DNA from: Pseudoxanthomonas broegbernensis
Lineage (GTDB): Bacteria; Pseudomonadota; Gammaproteobacteria; Xanthomonadales; Xanthomonadaceae
Length of the DNA stretch: 64,000 bases
Reading direction: 5' to 3'
Assembly: GCF_014202435.1 (NCBI RefSeq)
Contig: NZ_JACHGU010000005.1
Coordinates: forward strand, 62,001-126,000
The number at the start of each line of letters is the position of its first letter. Position 1 is the first letter of the stretch. Of this stretch, positions 24,241 through 32,195 are shown in pieces. Under the pieces are notes generated by a model that was not told the origin of the DNA, did no database searches, and saw nothing but the letters and a program-made list of their open reading frames with translations. The translations under genes and the position numbers were made by a program.

Positions 24241-24660
24241 TCAGGCATGCCAGGGATCGATCACCGTGACCCCACAATCCTCGAAATCCCGTACGTTGCG
24301 GGTGGCCAGCATCGCTCCGCGCGAGCGAGCGATGCTGGCGATCATGGCGTCCGACTGGCTGATCGGGCGCCCCTGCGCGCGGCGCATGGCCGCGAGCGTG
24401 GCATGGACCTCGGCGGCGGCGCTATCGTATGGCAGCACGCGCCCTGCCATATCCGTGGAGAAGATTGCCTCCACTTCATGCAGCAGGGCGTCGCGATGAC
24501 GACCGGCTGGAAGGATGCAGACGCCATAAAGCATCTCGCCCCGCGAAACCGCCGTCGTGAACAGCACATCCATCGTCTGGGCTTCCAGCCAAGCCACCAC
24601 CCTCGGCTCCGGTATCGCGCGAATCAGCTCGGACAGGATATTGGTGTCAAGGACGATCAC
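24241..24660 (-). CDS. PIN-domain toxin, VapC/FitB family
   Basis: A 139-residue PIN-domain ribonuclease-type toxin. The acidic active site is Asp5 (MIVLDTNILSEL), Glu42 (SRGEMLYG), Asp104 (SQSDAMIASIA) and Asp125 (TRNVRDFED), all present. The residues and the WLEAQ and PYDSAAAEVHA stretches fit the FitB/VapC group. It starts with GTG overlapping the antitoxin stop (GTGA). It is inverted relative to the cas genes and converges on cas2-3 with only 27 bases between stop codons. Target RNA is unknown. Confidence 0.88.
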   Translation of the reverse strand: MIVLDTNILSELIRAIPEPRVVAWLEAQTMDVLFTTAVSRGEMLYGVCILPAGRHRDALLHEVEAIFSTDMAGRVLPYDSAAAEVHATLAAMRRAQGRPISQSDAMIASIARSRGAMLATRNVRDFEDCGVTVIDPWHA

Positions 24661-24926
24661 TCGCCGCGCCCGCTCTCGCCGAAGTCCGGCGCCTCACGCA
24701 TCGGCTCGCGCGGCGGAAGTTCCAGATCGATGCCGCCGACCCGCTTCACCCGGGCACGGATGGCCTTGACCAGCGCCGCGCCGGTATTCGCTTCCGGCTC
24801 GGTGTTCAGCGCAGCCCGCAGGATGCTGCGGGCCTCCTCTTCCATCGAACGCCCGTGCTGCGCCGCCCGAATACGCAGGCGCGTCTTCACGTCATCGCCA
24901 ATGTTGCGGATTGTCACGGTAGCCAT
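24657..24926 (-). CDS. Ribbon-helix-helix antitoxin, VapB/FitA family
   Basis: An 89-residue antitoxin. The N-terminal ribbon-helix-helix reads MATVTIRNIGDDVKTRLRIR with HGRSMEEEARSILRAAL, typical of FitA-like antitoxins that bind DNA as dimers and block the toxin with a C-terminal tail (GIDLELPPREPM). The ATG at 24926 is preceded by GGAGG at a 10-base spacing. A longer in-frame start at 25001 would read through the pseudo-repeat hairpin and is not favoured. It is the first gene of the pair and shares its upstream region with csy1. Confidence 0.85.
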   Translation of the reverse strand: MATVTIRNIGDDVKTRLRIRAAQHGRSMEEEARSILRAALNTEPEANTGAALVKAIRARVKRVGGIDLELPPREPMREAPDFGESGRGE

Positions 24927-24975
24927 GGACTCAAATCCTCCGAAGGCAATGACGGCATTGTATGCAATGCATGCT

Positions 24976-25044
24976 GAAAAACTGCCTACTCGGCAGTACA
25001 CCCCTTGGGATAGAACTATCTTCTAAGCTATCTTTGCGATAGTA
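24976..25044 (-). ncRNA. Candidate crRNA-like regulatory RNA (CreA/CreR-like)
   Basis: Read on the minus strand, a degenerate I-F repeat (25044-25019) forms a hairpin CTATC-GCAAA-GATAG and ends in CTTAGAAG, like the 8-nt crRNA handle of the array repeat (CTCAGAGA). An 18-nt guide follows (25019-25002, ATAGTTCTATCCCAAGGG). A second pseudo-repeat follows (25001-24982, GTGTACTGCCGAGTAGGCAG), in which the Csy4 stem CTGCC/GGCAG is exact. It runs straight into TTTTT, so the hairpin could also terminate transcription. The layout is repeat-guide-repeat with a short guide. The guide matches 25031-25048 next to CC on the same strand. The role as an autoregulatory guide is inference; overlapping GATAG/CTATC palindromes could instead be antitoxin operators. 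Confidence 0.6.
25005..25034 (+). promoter_or_regulatory. Candidate csy operon promoter
   Basis: TTGGGA (25005-25010) and TATCTT (25029-25034, 18-base spacing) are the best plus-strand pair upstream of csy1. They would start transcription near 25041, within the guide-matching site. The match is modest and other pairs are possible. Confidence 0.3.
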
Positions 25045-25050
25045 CTATGG

Positions 25051-25079
25051 ATTTTATTCGAGGAACCCACGGGACACAA
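25051..25079 (-). promoter_or_regulatory. Promoter of the crRNA-like RNA
   Basis: On the minus strand TTGTGT (25079-25074) and TAAAAT (25056-25051) are spaced by exactly 17 bases. A start near 25044 would place the first pseudo-repeat at the 5' end of the RNA. The CC and the guide-matching site lie directly downstream of the -10 box, so a bound Csy complex would block this promoter. Confidence 0.5.
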
Positions 25080-25184
25080 TGCCAGTTGCGGTCGGCAGGC
25101 TCGCCATTCCGGGGTCGCAACCTGTGAGATGGGTGAGAGTTAAGAGTGGAAATGAAAGGGGACAACACGACAGGGGAAAATGAC

Positions 25185-26525
25185 ATGCCCGATCTGACCA
25201 AAAGAGGGAAAACCTTCCGCTCAGCCATCACTGCCTTCATCGACGAGCGGCGCGAGGCCAAGCTGAAGGGCAAGGAAGACGATGCCGGGACGGCATCCAG
25301 GTACGACTACGGCACGTGGCTGGCCGATGCCGCGCGCCGGGTCGGCCAGATCCAGGCCGTCACCCACGTGCTCAAGGCCACCCACCCGGACGCCCGCGGC
25401 AGCAGCCTGCATGCCGCGCCCGGCACGCTGCCGCAGCACACCGAGATCGGCACGCACCTGCTGGGCGAGGACTACGCCGAGGACGTGGTCGGCAACGCCG
25501 CGGCGCTGGATGTATTCAAGTTCCTCAAGACCGAGGTCGAAGGCCGCCGGCTGCTGGACTGGATGCGGGCCGGCGACCTCGACCTGCGCAGTGCGCTGCA
25601 TCCGGATCCCGACACCGCCTCCGGCTGGATGGAGGCCTTCGGCAACCTGATCCGCAGCGACCCGGCCCCCAGTTCGCACGAAGCGGCCAAGCAGATCTAC
25701 TGGCTGGTCGACGGGCAGCCATCGAACGATGGCGACTACCATCTGCTACAGCCATTGTTCTCCAGCAGCCTGGCCCATGCGGTGCATGCCGATATCCAGG
25801 ACGCCCGGTTCGGCGAAGCCAACAAGTTGGCGCGGCAAGCCTTCCGGGCGAAGGAGGCGCACGAAGCCCCCTATCGCGACTACCGCCAACTGGTCGCGCG
25901 CAAGCTGGGGGGAACGAAGCCACAGAACATTTCCCAGCTCAACAGCGAACGTGGCGGCATCAATTACCTGTTGGCCTCGCTACCGCCCACATGGACCCGC
26001 GAGTCGTCCCGGAGCCTGCTCCGCCTGGAAACGGCGCTGGAAATATTCTCCTACTTTGAAGGTGTTCGACCGCTGGTACGAACGTTGTCCTCCTTCCTTA
26101 TGTCCGATCCGGACCGGAACACGGACACACGCGACAAACGCGAAGCCATCGAGCAGGCACTGGCCCTGCAGCTTCCAGTGTTCGCCGCGAGCATCCAGGC
26201 CCGCCTCGAACCAGGCTGGACCCGCGACCCCGATTGTCGCCTGCCATTGTGTGAGCAGCTCTGGCTCGATCCCGAGCGCACCGAACTGCCGGCGCGCGAA
26301 GGACACGAGCAGGAAGACGAAGATTTCAATGCGGCGTACGCTCGGGGAAACTGGTCGGACGAGGTCGCCGGCCGCTTCGCCAACTGGGTCAACGCGGAGC
26401 TGCGCGAGGCCGGGCTGACCACGGTCGGCGATGCGGAGTACACGCATTGGGCCAGGCAGGCCATCGTCGAGGCGGCCTGGCCGGTGCCGATGCAACGGCG
26501 CGCTCCGGCGGGAGGACAGCCATGA
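25185..26525 (+). CDS. csy1: Csy1 / Cas8f, large-subunit of the type I-F surveillance complex
   Basis: A 446-residue protein that forms the tail of the Csy complex with Csy2 and takes part in PAM recognition. Family features are AITAFIDERREAKLKGK near the N-terminus, ATHPDARGSSL near 60-70, and the C-terminal WARQAIVEAAWPVPMQRR. The ATG at 25185 has AGGGGAA 7-8 bases upstream and gives the family N-terminus; an in-frame GTG at 25146 is less likely. The stop overlaps csy2 by 4 bases. The 258-base upstream gap holds the crRNA-like element and the divergent antitoxin promoter region. Confidence 0.93.
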   Translation: MPDLTKRGKTFRSAITAFIDERREAKLKGKEDDAGTASRYDYGTWLADAARRVGQIQAVTHVLKATHPDARGSSLHAAPGTLPQHTEIGTHLLGEDYAEDVVGNAAALDVFKFLKTEVEGRRLLDWMRAGDLDLRSALHPDPDTASGWMEAFGNLIRSDPAPSSHEAAKQIYWLVDGQPSNDGDYHLLQPLFSSSLAHAVHADIQDARFGEANKLARQAFRAKEAHEAPYRDYRQLVARKLGGTKPQNISQLNSERGGINYLLASLPPTWTRESSRSLLRLETALEIFSYFEGVRPLVRTLSSFLMSDPDRNTDTRDKREAIEQALALQLPVFAASIQARLEPGWTRDPDCRLPLCEQLWLDPERTELPAREGHEQEDEDFNAAYARGNWSDEVAGRFANWVNAELREAGLTTVGDAEYTHWARQAIVEAAWPVPMQRRAPAGGQP

Positions 26526-29287: not shown

Positions 29288-32195
29288 GTTCACTGCCGCA
29301 TAGGCAGCTCAGAGAAGTCATCGAGCGGCAGGTTGCACATGCGGAAGGTTCACTGCCGCATAGGCAGCTCAGAGATTTCCAGGTAGCGGTCAGCAGTCCG
29401 CGGAACGGTTCACTGCCGCATAGGCAGCTCAGAGATGGGGGAACAGGTACTTCGCCGGCGGCGTGCCGTTCACTGCCGCATAGGCAGCTCAGAGATGCCA
29501 GCTCGCCTTCGCCGCGTCGCTGAGGGGGTTCACTGCCGCATAGGCAGCTCAGAGATCACGTACTTGCTTCGGATCACGCGCGGGCGGGTTCACTGCCGCA
29601 TAGGCAGCTCAGAGATGACCACCGTCGGCATCGTCGTGAAGTTCGCCGTTCACTGCCGCATAGGCAGCTCAGAGATCGCTGGGGCTCAGCCGGTTGGCCT
29701 TGATGAAGTTCACTGCCGCATAGGCAGCTCAGAGAACCCCTCCTCGCCAGGGATGGCGACGCCTGCTGTTCACTGCCGCATAGGCAGCTCAGAGAGTCCA
29801 CAACTCCGGCCTGTACGTGAACGCTGCGTTCACTGCCGCATAGGCAGCTCAGAGATGGTCGAGCTGGAACGAGATGACGGTGAACTCGGTTCACTGCCGC
29901 ATAGGCAGCTCAGAGAATGTCGAATACGTTGGGGGCGGCGACCCCATCGTTCACTGCCGCATAGGCAGCTCAGAGACATGACGATCGCCTGGGCCTCGGC
30001 GAGCCGGCGTTCACTGCCGCATAGGCAGCTCAGAGAGAGCTGCGCGACACCGCCGAGCGGGCCAAGAAGTTCACTGCCGCATAGGCAGCTCAGAGATGCA
30101 GGCCGAAGCCGTCACAGACACCGTCGGCGTTCACTGCCGCATAGGCAGCTCAGAGACTGATCCGGACGTGGGGTCCGAACTGGATGACGTTCACTGCCGC
30201 ATAGGCAGCTCAGAGACATTCCTGGAACCAGTCGCGGATCACGCTGCCGTTCACTGCCGCATAGGCAGCTCAGAGAGGAACCGCTGGCCAGCGGAACCAT
30301 GTGCGTCAGTTCACTGCCGCATAGGCAGCTCAGAGAATCGGCGGGATTCCCGCCCGCACCGGCGATGTGTTCACTGCCGCATAGGCAGCTCAGAGAAACT
30401 CGCGCAGCCAGTTGGTCAGATCATCAAGGTTCACTGCCGCATAGGCAGCTCAGAGAAACGATGCACAGATCACGCGCGGCGACGATGGGTTCACTGCCGC
30501 ATAGGCAGCTCAGAGAGTTCCTCGCTGCGGTAGGTCAGCGTCAACATCGTTCACTGCCGCATAGGCAGCTCAGAGAAGATGGTCCTCTTAACTGGATGCC
30601 TTCGTCTTGTTCACTGCCGCATAGGCAGCTCAGAGAGCGTATACGTGCCCATCCCGGCCGCGCTCACCGTTCACTGCCGCATAGGCAGCTCAGAGAATGA
30701 TCTTCGTCGTTATGCCTCCCGTTTGGCAGTTCACTGCCGCATAGGCAGCTCAGAGACGAACCCATGCGCAGAAGCGCACTACGATCACGTTCACTGCCGC
30801 ATAGGCAGCTCAGAGATCGTAACCGGCCAGCCCGGCCACGGCAAAACCGTTCACTGCCGCATAGGCAGCTCAGAGATACACACTCCGGAGAATGCCGATC
30901 CTCACCCGGTTCACTGCCGCATAGGCAGCTCAGAGAATGGGGAAGTGGTAAGCCATGCTGGTATTCAAGTTCACTGCCGCATAGGCAGCTCAGAGATGCA
31001 GGTGACAAAGTGAGCGCCCTTGTCTGGAGTTCACTGCCGCATAGGCAGCTCAGAGATCGATCAGTCTGGCCTGGGCGGCGGTGGCTCTGTTCACTGCCGC
31101 ATAGGCAGCTCAGAGAAAATCCGGATTGATCCAAGCGGCCCACAGGATGTTCACTGCCGCATAGGCAGCTCAGAGAACTCCGCGCCATGGCCAAGGAAGG
31201 CAAGCTCAGTTCACTGCCGCATAGGCAGCTCAGAGATGGAGCATGCCCAACTTGTCGCCCGTGAAATCGTTCACTGCCGCATAGGCAGCTCAGAGATGGC
31301 AGCGTTCGAGATGCGGGATGCCGGCTACGTTCACTGCCGCATAGGCAGCTCAGAGAAGTTCGTAATGATCGCTTCCTTACGCGCCTCCGTTCACTGCCGC
31401 ATAGGCAGCTCAGAGATGTTCGACGTTGAGCTTGAAGGGCAGCGGGTAGTTCACTGCCGCATAGGCAGCTCAGAGAACCACTTCCCTACCCTGATACGCC
31501 GGAGCCGAGTTCACTGCCGCATAGGCAGCTCAGAGAAGCTAGCGAAGATCGCAGGCCTCGACCCGAAAGTTCACTGCCGCATAGGCAGCTCAGAGATGCA
31601 GGCGCAGCAGGAGGCCGCCGCGCGGCTGGTTCACTGCCGCATAGGCAGCTCAGAGACCCGCCGTCACCGTCGCTCCCGCTCCGTTGCCGTTCACTGCCGC
31701 ATAGGCAGCTCAGAGAAGTCATAGCGCCGCACGCGAGCGCCCGTGGTCGTTCACTGCCGCATAGGCAGCTCAGAGATGATCCGTCAAGTCTCCGAACTCC
31801 CCGCCGCTGTTCACTGCCGCATAGGCAGCTCAGAGATATTCGAGGTGCGCTATGCCCCTGACTCCTTCGTTCACTGCCGCATAGGCAGCTCAGAGATGTC
31901 AAACAAGCCTCCCTTGTCCACATGCAGGGTTCACTGCCGCATAGGCAGCTCAGAGAACCGCGAACATCGAGGTGGATTACAGCCACGGGTTCACTGCCGC
32001 ATAGGCAGCTCAGAGAATCGAGCCAATGCAGGCCATCTCGCCAAGCTCGTTCACTGCCGCATAGGCAGCTCAGAGAATGTCAGCAGCGTGGTGGTCAAGA
32101 AGGGTGGCGTTCACTACCGCATAGGCAGCTCAGAGAGCAGATCGCCAGGGATGTCCGTCGCCTCAGGGGTTAACTGCCGCATAGGCAGCCAGAGA
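29288..32195 (+). CRISPR. Type I-F CRISPR array, 49 repeats and 48 spacers
   Basis: A 28-bp repeat beginning GTTCACTGCCGCATAGGCAG and ending CTCAGAGA recurs every 60 bases from 29288. Spacers are 32 nt, except spacer 10 (29856-29888), which is 33 nt and shifts the register by one. The stem CTGCC/GGCAG is the Csy4 substrate. All repeats look identical until the last two: the one at 32109 has CTACC in place of CTGCC, and the one at 32169 has GTTAACTG and lacks the T in CAGCTCAG, giving 27 bp. Decay at the right end and the leader at the left agree on direction. No duplicated spacers were seen. The array is transcribed in the same direction as the cas genes. Confidence 0.98.

Follow-up and report, generated by a model that had tools for sequence, protein, structure and literature searches.

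A crRNA-like element with a target at its own start between cas2-3 and csy1 of a type I-F CRISPR-Cas locus, and its relatives in other genera

The window analysed here, a stretch of 64,000 nucleotides from Pseudoxanthomonas broegbernensis, contains a type I-F CRISPR-Cas locus in which Cas1 and Csy1-4 were identified by Pfam. An array of 47 identical 28-nt repeats starts at 29288, behind csy4. The interval between cas2-3 and csy1 carries, on the minus strand, a pseudo-repeat (psiR1), an 18-nt guide and a second pseudo-repeat (psiR2), which make up an element at 25047-24974. FitAB-like genes follow psiR2 on the same strand, which confirms the toxin-antitoxin (TA) pair that an initial annotation of this DNA had placed next to the element. 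The features are as follows.

25185..26525, plus strand: csy1, first gene of the csy1-csy4 operon (PF09611, 1.4e-131; start set by alignment)
25051..25184, plus strand: 134-nt stretch from the PAM to the csy1 start, without the creT-like SD and mini-ORF of relatives
25051..25079, minus strand: candidate guide-gene promoter, TTGTGT-17-TAAAAT (8 of 12 consensus positions; missed by a 9-of-12 scan)
25049..25050, minus strand: CC PAM of the self-target, by sequence
25031..25048, minus strand: self-target (protospacer), overlapping psiR1 and the predicted transcript start; 14 of the 15 non-sixth positions of nt 1-17 match
25020..25047, minus strand: psiR1, degenerate 28-nt I-F repeat with stem CTATC/GATAG and handle CTTAGAAG
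25002..25019, minus strand: guide (psiS), 18 nt, from the sequence and cross-locus comparison
24974..25001, minus strand: psiR2, degenerate I-F repeat with an intact CTGCC/GGCAG stem, then TTTTT
24955..24970, minus strand: inverted repeat GCATTG-CATA-CAATGC, containing TACAAT; probable FitAB operator, by sequence
24657..24926, minus strand: fitA-like antitoxin gene, ribbon-helix-helix (PF22513, 7.4e-20)
24241..24660, minus strand: fitB-like PIN toxin gene (PF01850, 1.7e-13)

The initial annotation described two degenerate I-F repeats around an 18-nt guide on the minus strand, and this anatomy was borne out by the sequence. psiR1 is identical to the array repeat at 16 of 28 positions and keeps 5 of 5 stem pairs. 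As annotated, its compensated hairpin is CTATC-GCAAA-GATAG, followed by the handle CTTAGAAG; in the stem, two changes from the array repeat are compensated. psiR2 is identical at 17 of 28 positions with five stem pairs. Its core, ACTGCCGAGTAGGCAG, agrees with the array core at 14 of 16 positions, as had been counted for the downstream repeat, and the T-run reported after the second hairpin is the TTTTT behind psiR2. In the whole 3.47-Mb genome, exact copies of ACTGCCGNNTAGGCAG outside the array occur in psiR2 only. An ordinary CRISPR array, with near-identical repeats and spacers of ~32 nt, was ruled out, as the repeats agree at 16/28 and 17/28 positions and enclose a single 18-nt guide. Rfam gave nothing credible for the element; its one match lies far below its gathering score. 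The array handle (window 29288-32188) is CTCAGAGA, and many psiR1 of relatives retain CTNAGAAA. Near the array end, one repeat has a stem change (contig C5 94113).

The key part of the element, a target of the guide at its own locus, was absent from the initial annotation. Read behind the handle, the guide is ATAGTTCTATCCCAAGGG; its counterpart on that strand is ATAGTACTATCGCAAAGA at 25048-25031, which follows CC and differs at guide nt 6, 12, 16 and 18. In type I-F guides every sixth nucleotide stays unpaired, so 14 of the 15 pairable positions of nt 1-17 count as matched. For Acinetobacter CreA, CC serves as the I-F PAM, and the guide is described as unpaired at nt 6, 11 and 18 (PMC10097628). 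The self-target lies in the divergent interval that precedes csy1, and it begins immediately after the guide gene's putative -10 box. In the genome, the pattern CCATAGTNCTATCNCAA, with 15 fixed letters, has one zero-mismatch site, and the next best sites have 2 mismatches, one of them being the guide itself. A search of the genome for further targets at up to 3 mismatches returned 11 places, compared with 10 for the pattern read backwards; only the perfect site is therefore meaningful.

The promoter hexamers annotated before psiR1 are present, TTGTGT at 25079-25074 and TAAAAT at 25056-25051 with a spacing of 17 nt. As a promoter the pair is less convincing, since it agrees with the consensus at 8 of 12 positions (3 of 6 in the first hexamer) and fails our 9-of-12 promoter scan. 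That scan returned nothing in the window, and a recognisable consensus promoter for csy1 was not found there, so the target may serve the guide gene alone. A terminator scan of the window found none. Guide and target are close to a palindrome (ATAGTnCTAT, window 25012-25048); the RNA can therefore pair its guide with psiR1, which would conceal the hairpin for Csy4. When the naked RNA was folded in silico, its minimum-energy structure had the guide paired to the 5' side of psiR1 in place of the psiR1 hairpin, which appears only in the centroid of 24973-25044.

Of 395 genomes of the family, 30 have Csy1; in samples of the order, the class and the genus, which overlap with it and with each other, the numbers are 22 of 397, 32 of 369 and 1 of 17. 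The sole bearer in the genus is the source genome, and the evolution of guide and target can therefore not be followed in a close relative. A scan of genome contigs gave 80 named loci. From 153 loci, 126 distinct upstream regions of 992-1530 nt from gamma- and betaproteobacteria were retained after dropping L001, identical regions, loci with no Csy1 match and those with less than 300 nt upstream. A strict rule (stem, handle and a CC target within ~150 nt; best match per locus) was run on all 126 regions and returned 42 elements, all on the strand opposite csy1. Nine more were chosen by hand in a looser search that covered loci with cas3-csy1 gaps of at least 160 nt. The element is thus present in 51 of the 126 distinct loci, and other genera have psiR1 and psiR2 before csy1 too, with position and strand unchanged. 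The initial annotation had likened the element to RNAs of the CreA/CreR class and had staked this in part on conservation of both hairpins where the flanking genes are conserved. The survey supports the likeness, and the element survived that comparison. Its frequency depends on the gap: 0 of 44 loci below 160 nt (under the strict rule, for which these short-gap loci are a built-in control), 4 of 13 at 160-300 nt, 17 of 22 at 300-500 nt, 26 of 36 at 500-1400 nt, 0 of 1 above that and 4 of 10 where the gap is unknown.

Guides differ between loci, yet each matches its own locus, with 11-15 of 15 positions paired in the 51 loci: 4 loci score 11, 4 score 12, 11 score 13, 23 score 14 and 9 score 15. 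Shuffled guides reached at least 11 in 48 of 5100 draws and at least 13 in none; their maximum was 12, so that none equalled the 14 of 15 in the window, and each of the eight elements scoring 11 or 12 is singly within their reach. When guides were tried on foreign loci, at least 13 was reached in 9 of 2550 cases, the sisters L023-L025 among them. Element selection scored non-sixth guide positions only, and mismatches at nt 6, 12 and 18 occur in 43 of 51 elements each; unconstrained positions would be expected to mismatch in 75%, slightly less than this frequency (84%). Elsewhere in nt 1-17, mismatches occur in 0-16 of 51, with counts of 0, 1, 0, 1 and 3 at nt 1-5 and of 2, 4, 5, 7 and 4 at nt 7-11. 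In each of L022, L024 and L025, two CC-flanked sites before the creT-like segment match one guide (13/13, 14/13 and 15/12 of 15).

The hairpins covary as well. Of the 51 psiR1, 40 with five stem pairs around a 5-nt loop were used, in which all 200 of 200 cells pair by selection. Both sides of a pair were changed in 27 cells, against a mean of 5.8 in shuffled data, and 0 of 500 shuffles was as high. In 51 of 51 loci, the best hairpin located 12-32 nt downstream of the guide start has 8-10 of 10 positions in common with the repeat arms, a figure that has no shuffled control.

By the distance from target to csy1, the loci form a long group (37 loci, 197-304 nt) and a short group (14 loci, 0-168 nt); the distance of 0 in L116 stems from an extrapolated csy1 start and is unreliable. 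A strong SD with a mini-ORF of 5-22 codons is present in 29 of the 37 long-group loci, compared with 154 of 3700 shuffled segments, and TTGACA starts at most 2 bases from the PAM in 11 of 33 long-distance loci. In the published Acinetobacter I-F CreTA, the cas3-csy1 interval carries creT, with an SD and a 33-bp mini-ORF, behind the target (PMC10097628). The long-group layout is the same, judged by sequence, and its creT-like mini-genes are putative. The 29 loci (e.g. L009, L023-L025 and L074), each with an SD and short ORF behind the target, represent a putative type I-F creT family; its ORFs include MIGHRMIVISG and MKYRRRRT, and a promoter and a strong hairpin often precede them.

The window (137 nt) and Luteimonas XNQY3, L008 (120 nt), belong to the short group. 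The rule that finds an SD and mini-ORF in 29 of 37 long-group loci finds one in 0 of the 14 short-group loci, the window included, and TTGACA beside the PAM was not found in the window. A 34-codon ORF does start from ATG at 25079, between target and csy1, with GAGGA 14 nt upstream and no close SD. L008 is the nearest Csy1 relative (84%); it also lacks creT, and it has a different guide with its own target (14 of 15). If creT was lost before the window and L008 parted, the guide-target pair would have been renewed without creT; the two losses may also be separate events. In three short-group loci, L119 (Malikia granosa), L092 (betaproteobacterium MS502-43) and L060 (MAG YF3.bin23), the PAM lies 0-1 nt from a clear csy1 promoter (TTGACA/TTGACT-N16/17-TAxxxT), with 73-103 nt between target and csy1. 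In these loci it is thus the csy1 promoter that the guide covers, which is the geometry of CreR.

A Csy1 tree of 86 rows was built by a quick method from loci whose Csy1 is at least 46% identical to that of the window (91 of 126), leaving out L023, L024, L025, L031 and L118 with short or empty Csy1 translations. The tree shows 24 changes in the presence of the element and, among bearers, 8 changes between its two states. The element has therefore often been gained, lost or exchanged, in a direction that the tree cannot tell. The close Csy1 sisters L002 (X. albilineans CFBP2523) and L004 (Xanthomonas sp. GPE 39) offer a near-empty-site comparison: a CreTA-like interval is present in one (gap 395) and absent from the other (gap 127).

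TA-like genes recur in the cas3-csy1 interval. For the 36 loci whose gaps measure 500-1399 nt, the four longest ORFs each were listed, and 20 of these loci have TA-like genes, 12 with the element and 8 without a detected one; all listed TA-like genes are on the minus strand, opposite the cas genes. Nine of the 20 carry FitAB (tblastn with the window proteins), the fitA frame of L033 looking broken. The eleven others, L027, L030, L040, L071, L072, L075, L107, L113, L114, L116 and L117, hold unrelated genes (Phd/PIN, PaaA2-ParE, BrnT, MNT/HepT, HigBA and PIN). Pfam was run on ten proteins, from L027, L071, L072, L113, L116 and L040; L030, L107, L114 and L117 were called by likeness, as was L075, from its antitoxin alone. 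In L027 and L030, the Phd/PIN antitoxin starts 18-19 nt behind the psiR2 stem, which suggests that element and TA pair share one transcript. In the fitAB loci, inspection by eye showed a palindrome with TACAAT or a near form between psiR2 and fitA. This palindrome lies outside the target, so FitAB seems to have its own operator. The idea that FitAB replaces creT is unsupported: TA-like genes are found in 5 of 14 loci without creT and in 7 of 37 with room for it (Fisher p 0.27), and fitAB alone in 3 of 14 and 4 of 37 (p 0.38).

The guide matches a site at its own start, before the immune operon, and so it probably turns those genes down. The window element is, in our judgement, probably a type I-F CreR that represses the csy operon and/or itself. 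The label CreR suits it better than CreA, since room for creT is present in most bearers (37 of 51) and a creT-like gene is missing here; the window was not classed as CreTA since the rule found no SD and mini-ORF behind its target. As to transcription, processing, repression and the promoter that matters, we infer the following course. A short minus-strand transcript would be cut by Csy4 in both pseudo-repeats, with a predicted Csy4-dependent RNA of ~50 nt whose 5' end is CUUAGAAG. Its 18-nt guide would assemble a short Csy complex that binds 25048-25031 beside CC, between the guide gene and the divergent csy1. Incomplete pairing would allow binding without destruction of the target. The bound complex could block the promoter of the guide gene and/or a csy1 promoter on the opposite strand. 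Csy abundance would thereby be limited, and, by analogy to published CreRs, excess ordinary crRNAs or anti-CRISPR proteins may relieve the block.

Two other readings keep the element closer to CreTA. The guide could be an antitoxin (CreA) that silences a small toxic plus-strand RNA in 25051-25184, encoded by a creT that our rule does not recognise. The published Acinetobacter module occupies the same interval, room for creT is the usual state of bearers (37 of 51, with an SD and mini-ORF in 29 of the 37), and the 34-codon ORF with its GAGGA could be considered for this role. We regard this as unlikely, however, since an SD and mini-ORF of the kind found in those 29 loci and a TTGACA beside the PAM are both missing from the window and the room is 134 nt only. 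It is likewise doubtful that the element is a decaying CreTA remnant that lost creT and no longer works. The patchy presence of the element (24 changes on the Csy1 tree) and FitAB loci without a detected element (L057, L073) are in line with decay, but the window retains 14/15 pairing, two compensated changes in the psiR1 stem and both hairpins intact, and L008 retains a different, equally matched guide-target pair. That the hairpins arose by chance or terminate neighbouring transcripts is very improbable: psiR2 with its TTTTT resembles a short terminator, whereas the terminator scan found none and neither origin agrees with the conservation, the covariation and the guide-target matching.

The remaining readings involve the TA neighbour. 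The guide might control the FitAB operon, as a protein-toxin counterpart of CrePA. On the strand of the element, 55 nt separate the psiR2 stem from the start of fitA, 12 of the 51 element-bearing loci have a TA-like pair in the slot, and the 18-19 nt before the Phd/PIN genes of L027 and L030 leave little room for a separate promoter. On the other hand, the operator-like TACAAT palindrome stands between psiR2 and fitA, outside the target, TA-like genes occur in 8 loci without a detected element, and creT-less loci show no TA excess (5/14 vs 7/37, p 0.27). Given that palindrome, we keep guide control of fitAB as a rival only, and a quite improbable one. A broader scheme, which we consider rather unlikely, would place the Csy-guide complex on a divergent control site with the csy operon on one side and the guide gene and a type II TA pair on the other. 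Transcription of the cas genes and of the TA pair would then rise jointly whenever the Cas effector is lost or inhibited, and type I-F cas loci would have recruited unrelated pairs (FitAB, Phd/PIN, PaaA2-ParE, HigBA) repeatedly.

The window element shares with published I-F CreTA the cas3-csy1 interval, two divergent pseudo-repeats and a CC-flanked partial match mismatched at nt 6, all present in the window, as well as a short guide (20 nt in Acinetobacter, 18 here) and a guide gene divergent from the genes behind the target; the published modules have creT, whereas the window lacks it by the rule used and has FitAB on the cas3 side (PMC10097628). CreR, a cas-regulating RNA, is a crRNA-like RNA from degenerate repeats with a limited match before cas genes and no RNA toxin (PMC12737573, PMC13131331, PMC12948488). 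The window likewise has two degenerate repeats with Cas6-type hairpins around a short guide. Its PAM-flanked partial match lies between the guide gene and csy1, but a clear csy1 promoter, as seen in L119, L092 and L060, was not found in the window. By the SD and mini-ORF rule it has no RNA toxin gene; the 34-codon ORF remains. CreR is said to act in types I-B, I-E and V-A (PMC13131331), whereas the window is I-F and repression of cas genes is here proposed from sequence. CrePA also places a crRNA-like RNA beside a protein toxin gene in a cas locus, but its guide targets the toxin promoter and its toxin is typically KilA-N, whereas the window has a PIN toxin with its own antitoxin (PMC12737573). 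In the window the target (25048-25031) is separate from the operator-like palindrome of fitAB (24970-24955), so a CrePA arrangement was set aside; a shared transcript of element and fitAB from the guide promoter may occur. Racr, an RNA anti-CRISPR, also consists of solitary repeat-like units; it is described from viral genomes and inhibits CRISPR, unlike the window element with its guide and matching target inside a cas locus (PMC10651486). Our searches of an open-access library showed no report of a type I-F CreR, or of the element outside Acinetobacter, which is weak evidence of absence as most subscription papers fall outside that library.

The element is a member of a widespread family that is often paired with a small toxin-like gene, though not here. 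The recurrent one-strand TA slot bears on a question raised in PMC12737573, whether other TA types cooperate with CRISPR-Cas. The 51 loci are ready test cases, including Malikia granosa (L119), where the csy1 promoter is plain beside the target. If our reading is true, type I-F systems, much studied for anti-CRISPRs, would carry a built-in RNA-guided autorepressor, and CreTA and CreR would be a single element in two states, with and without creT.
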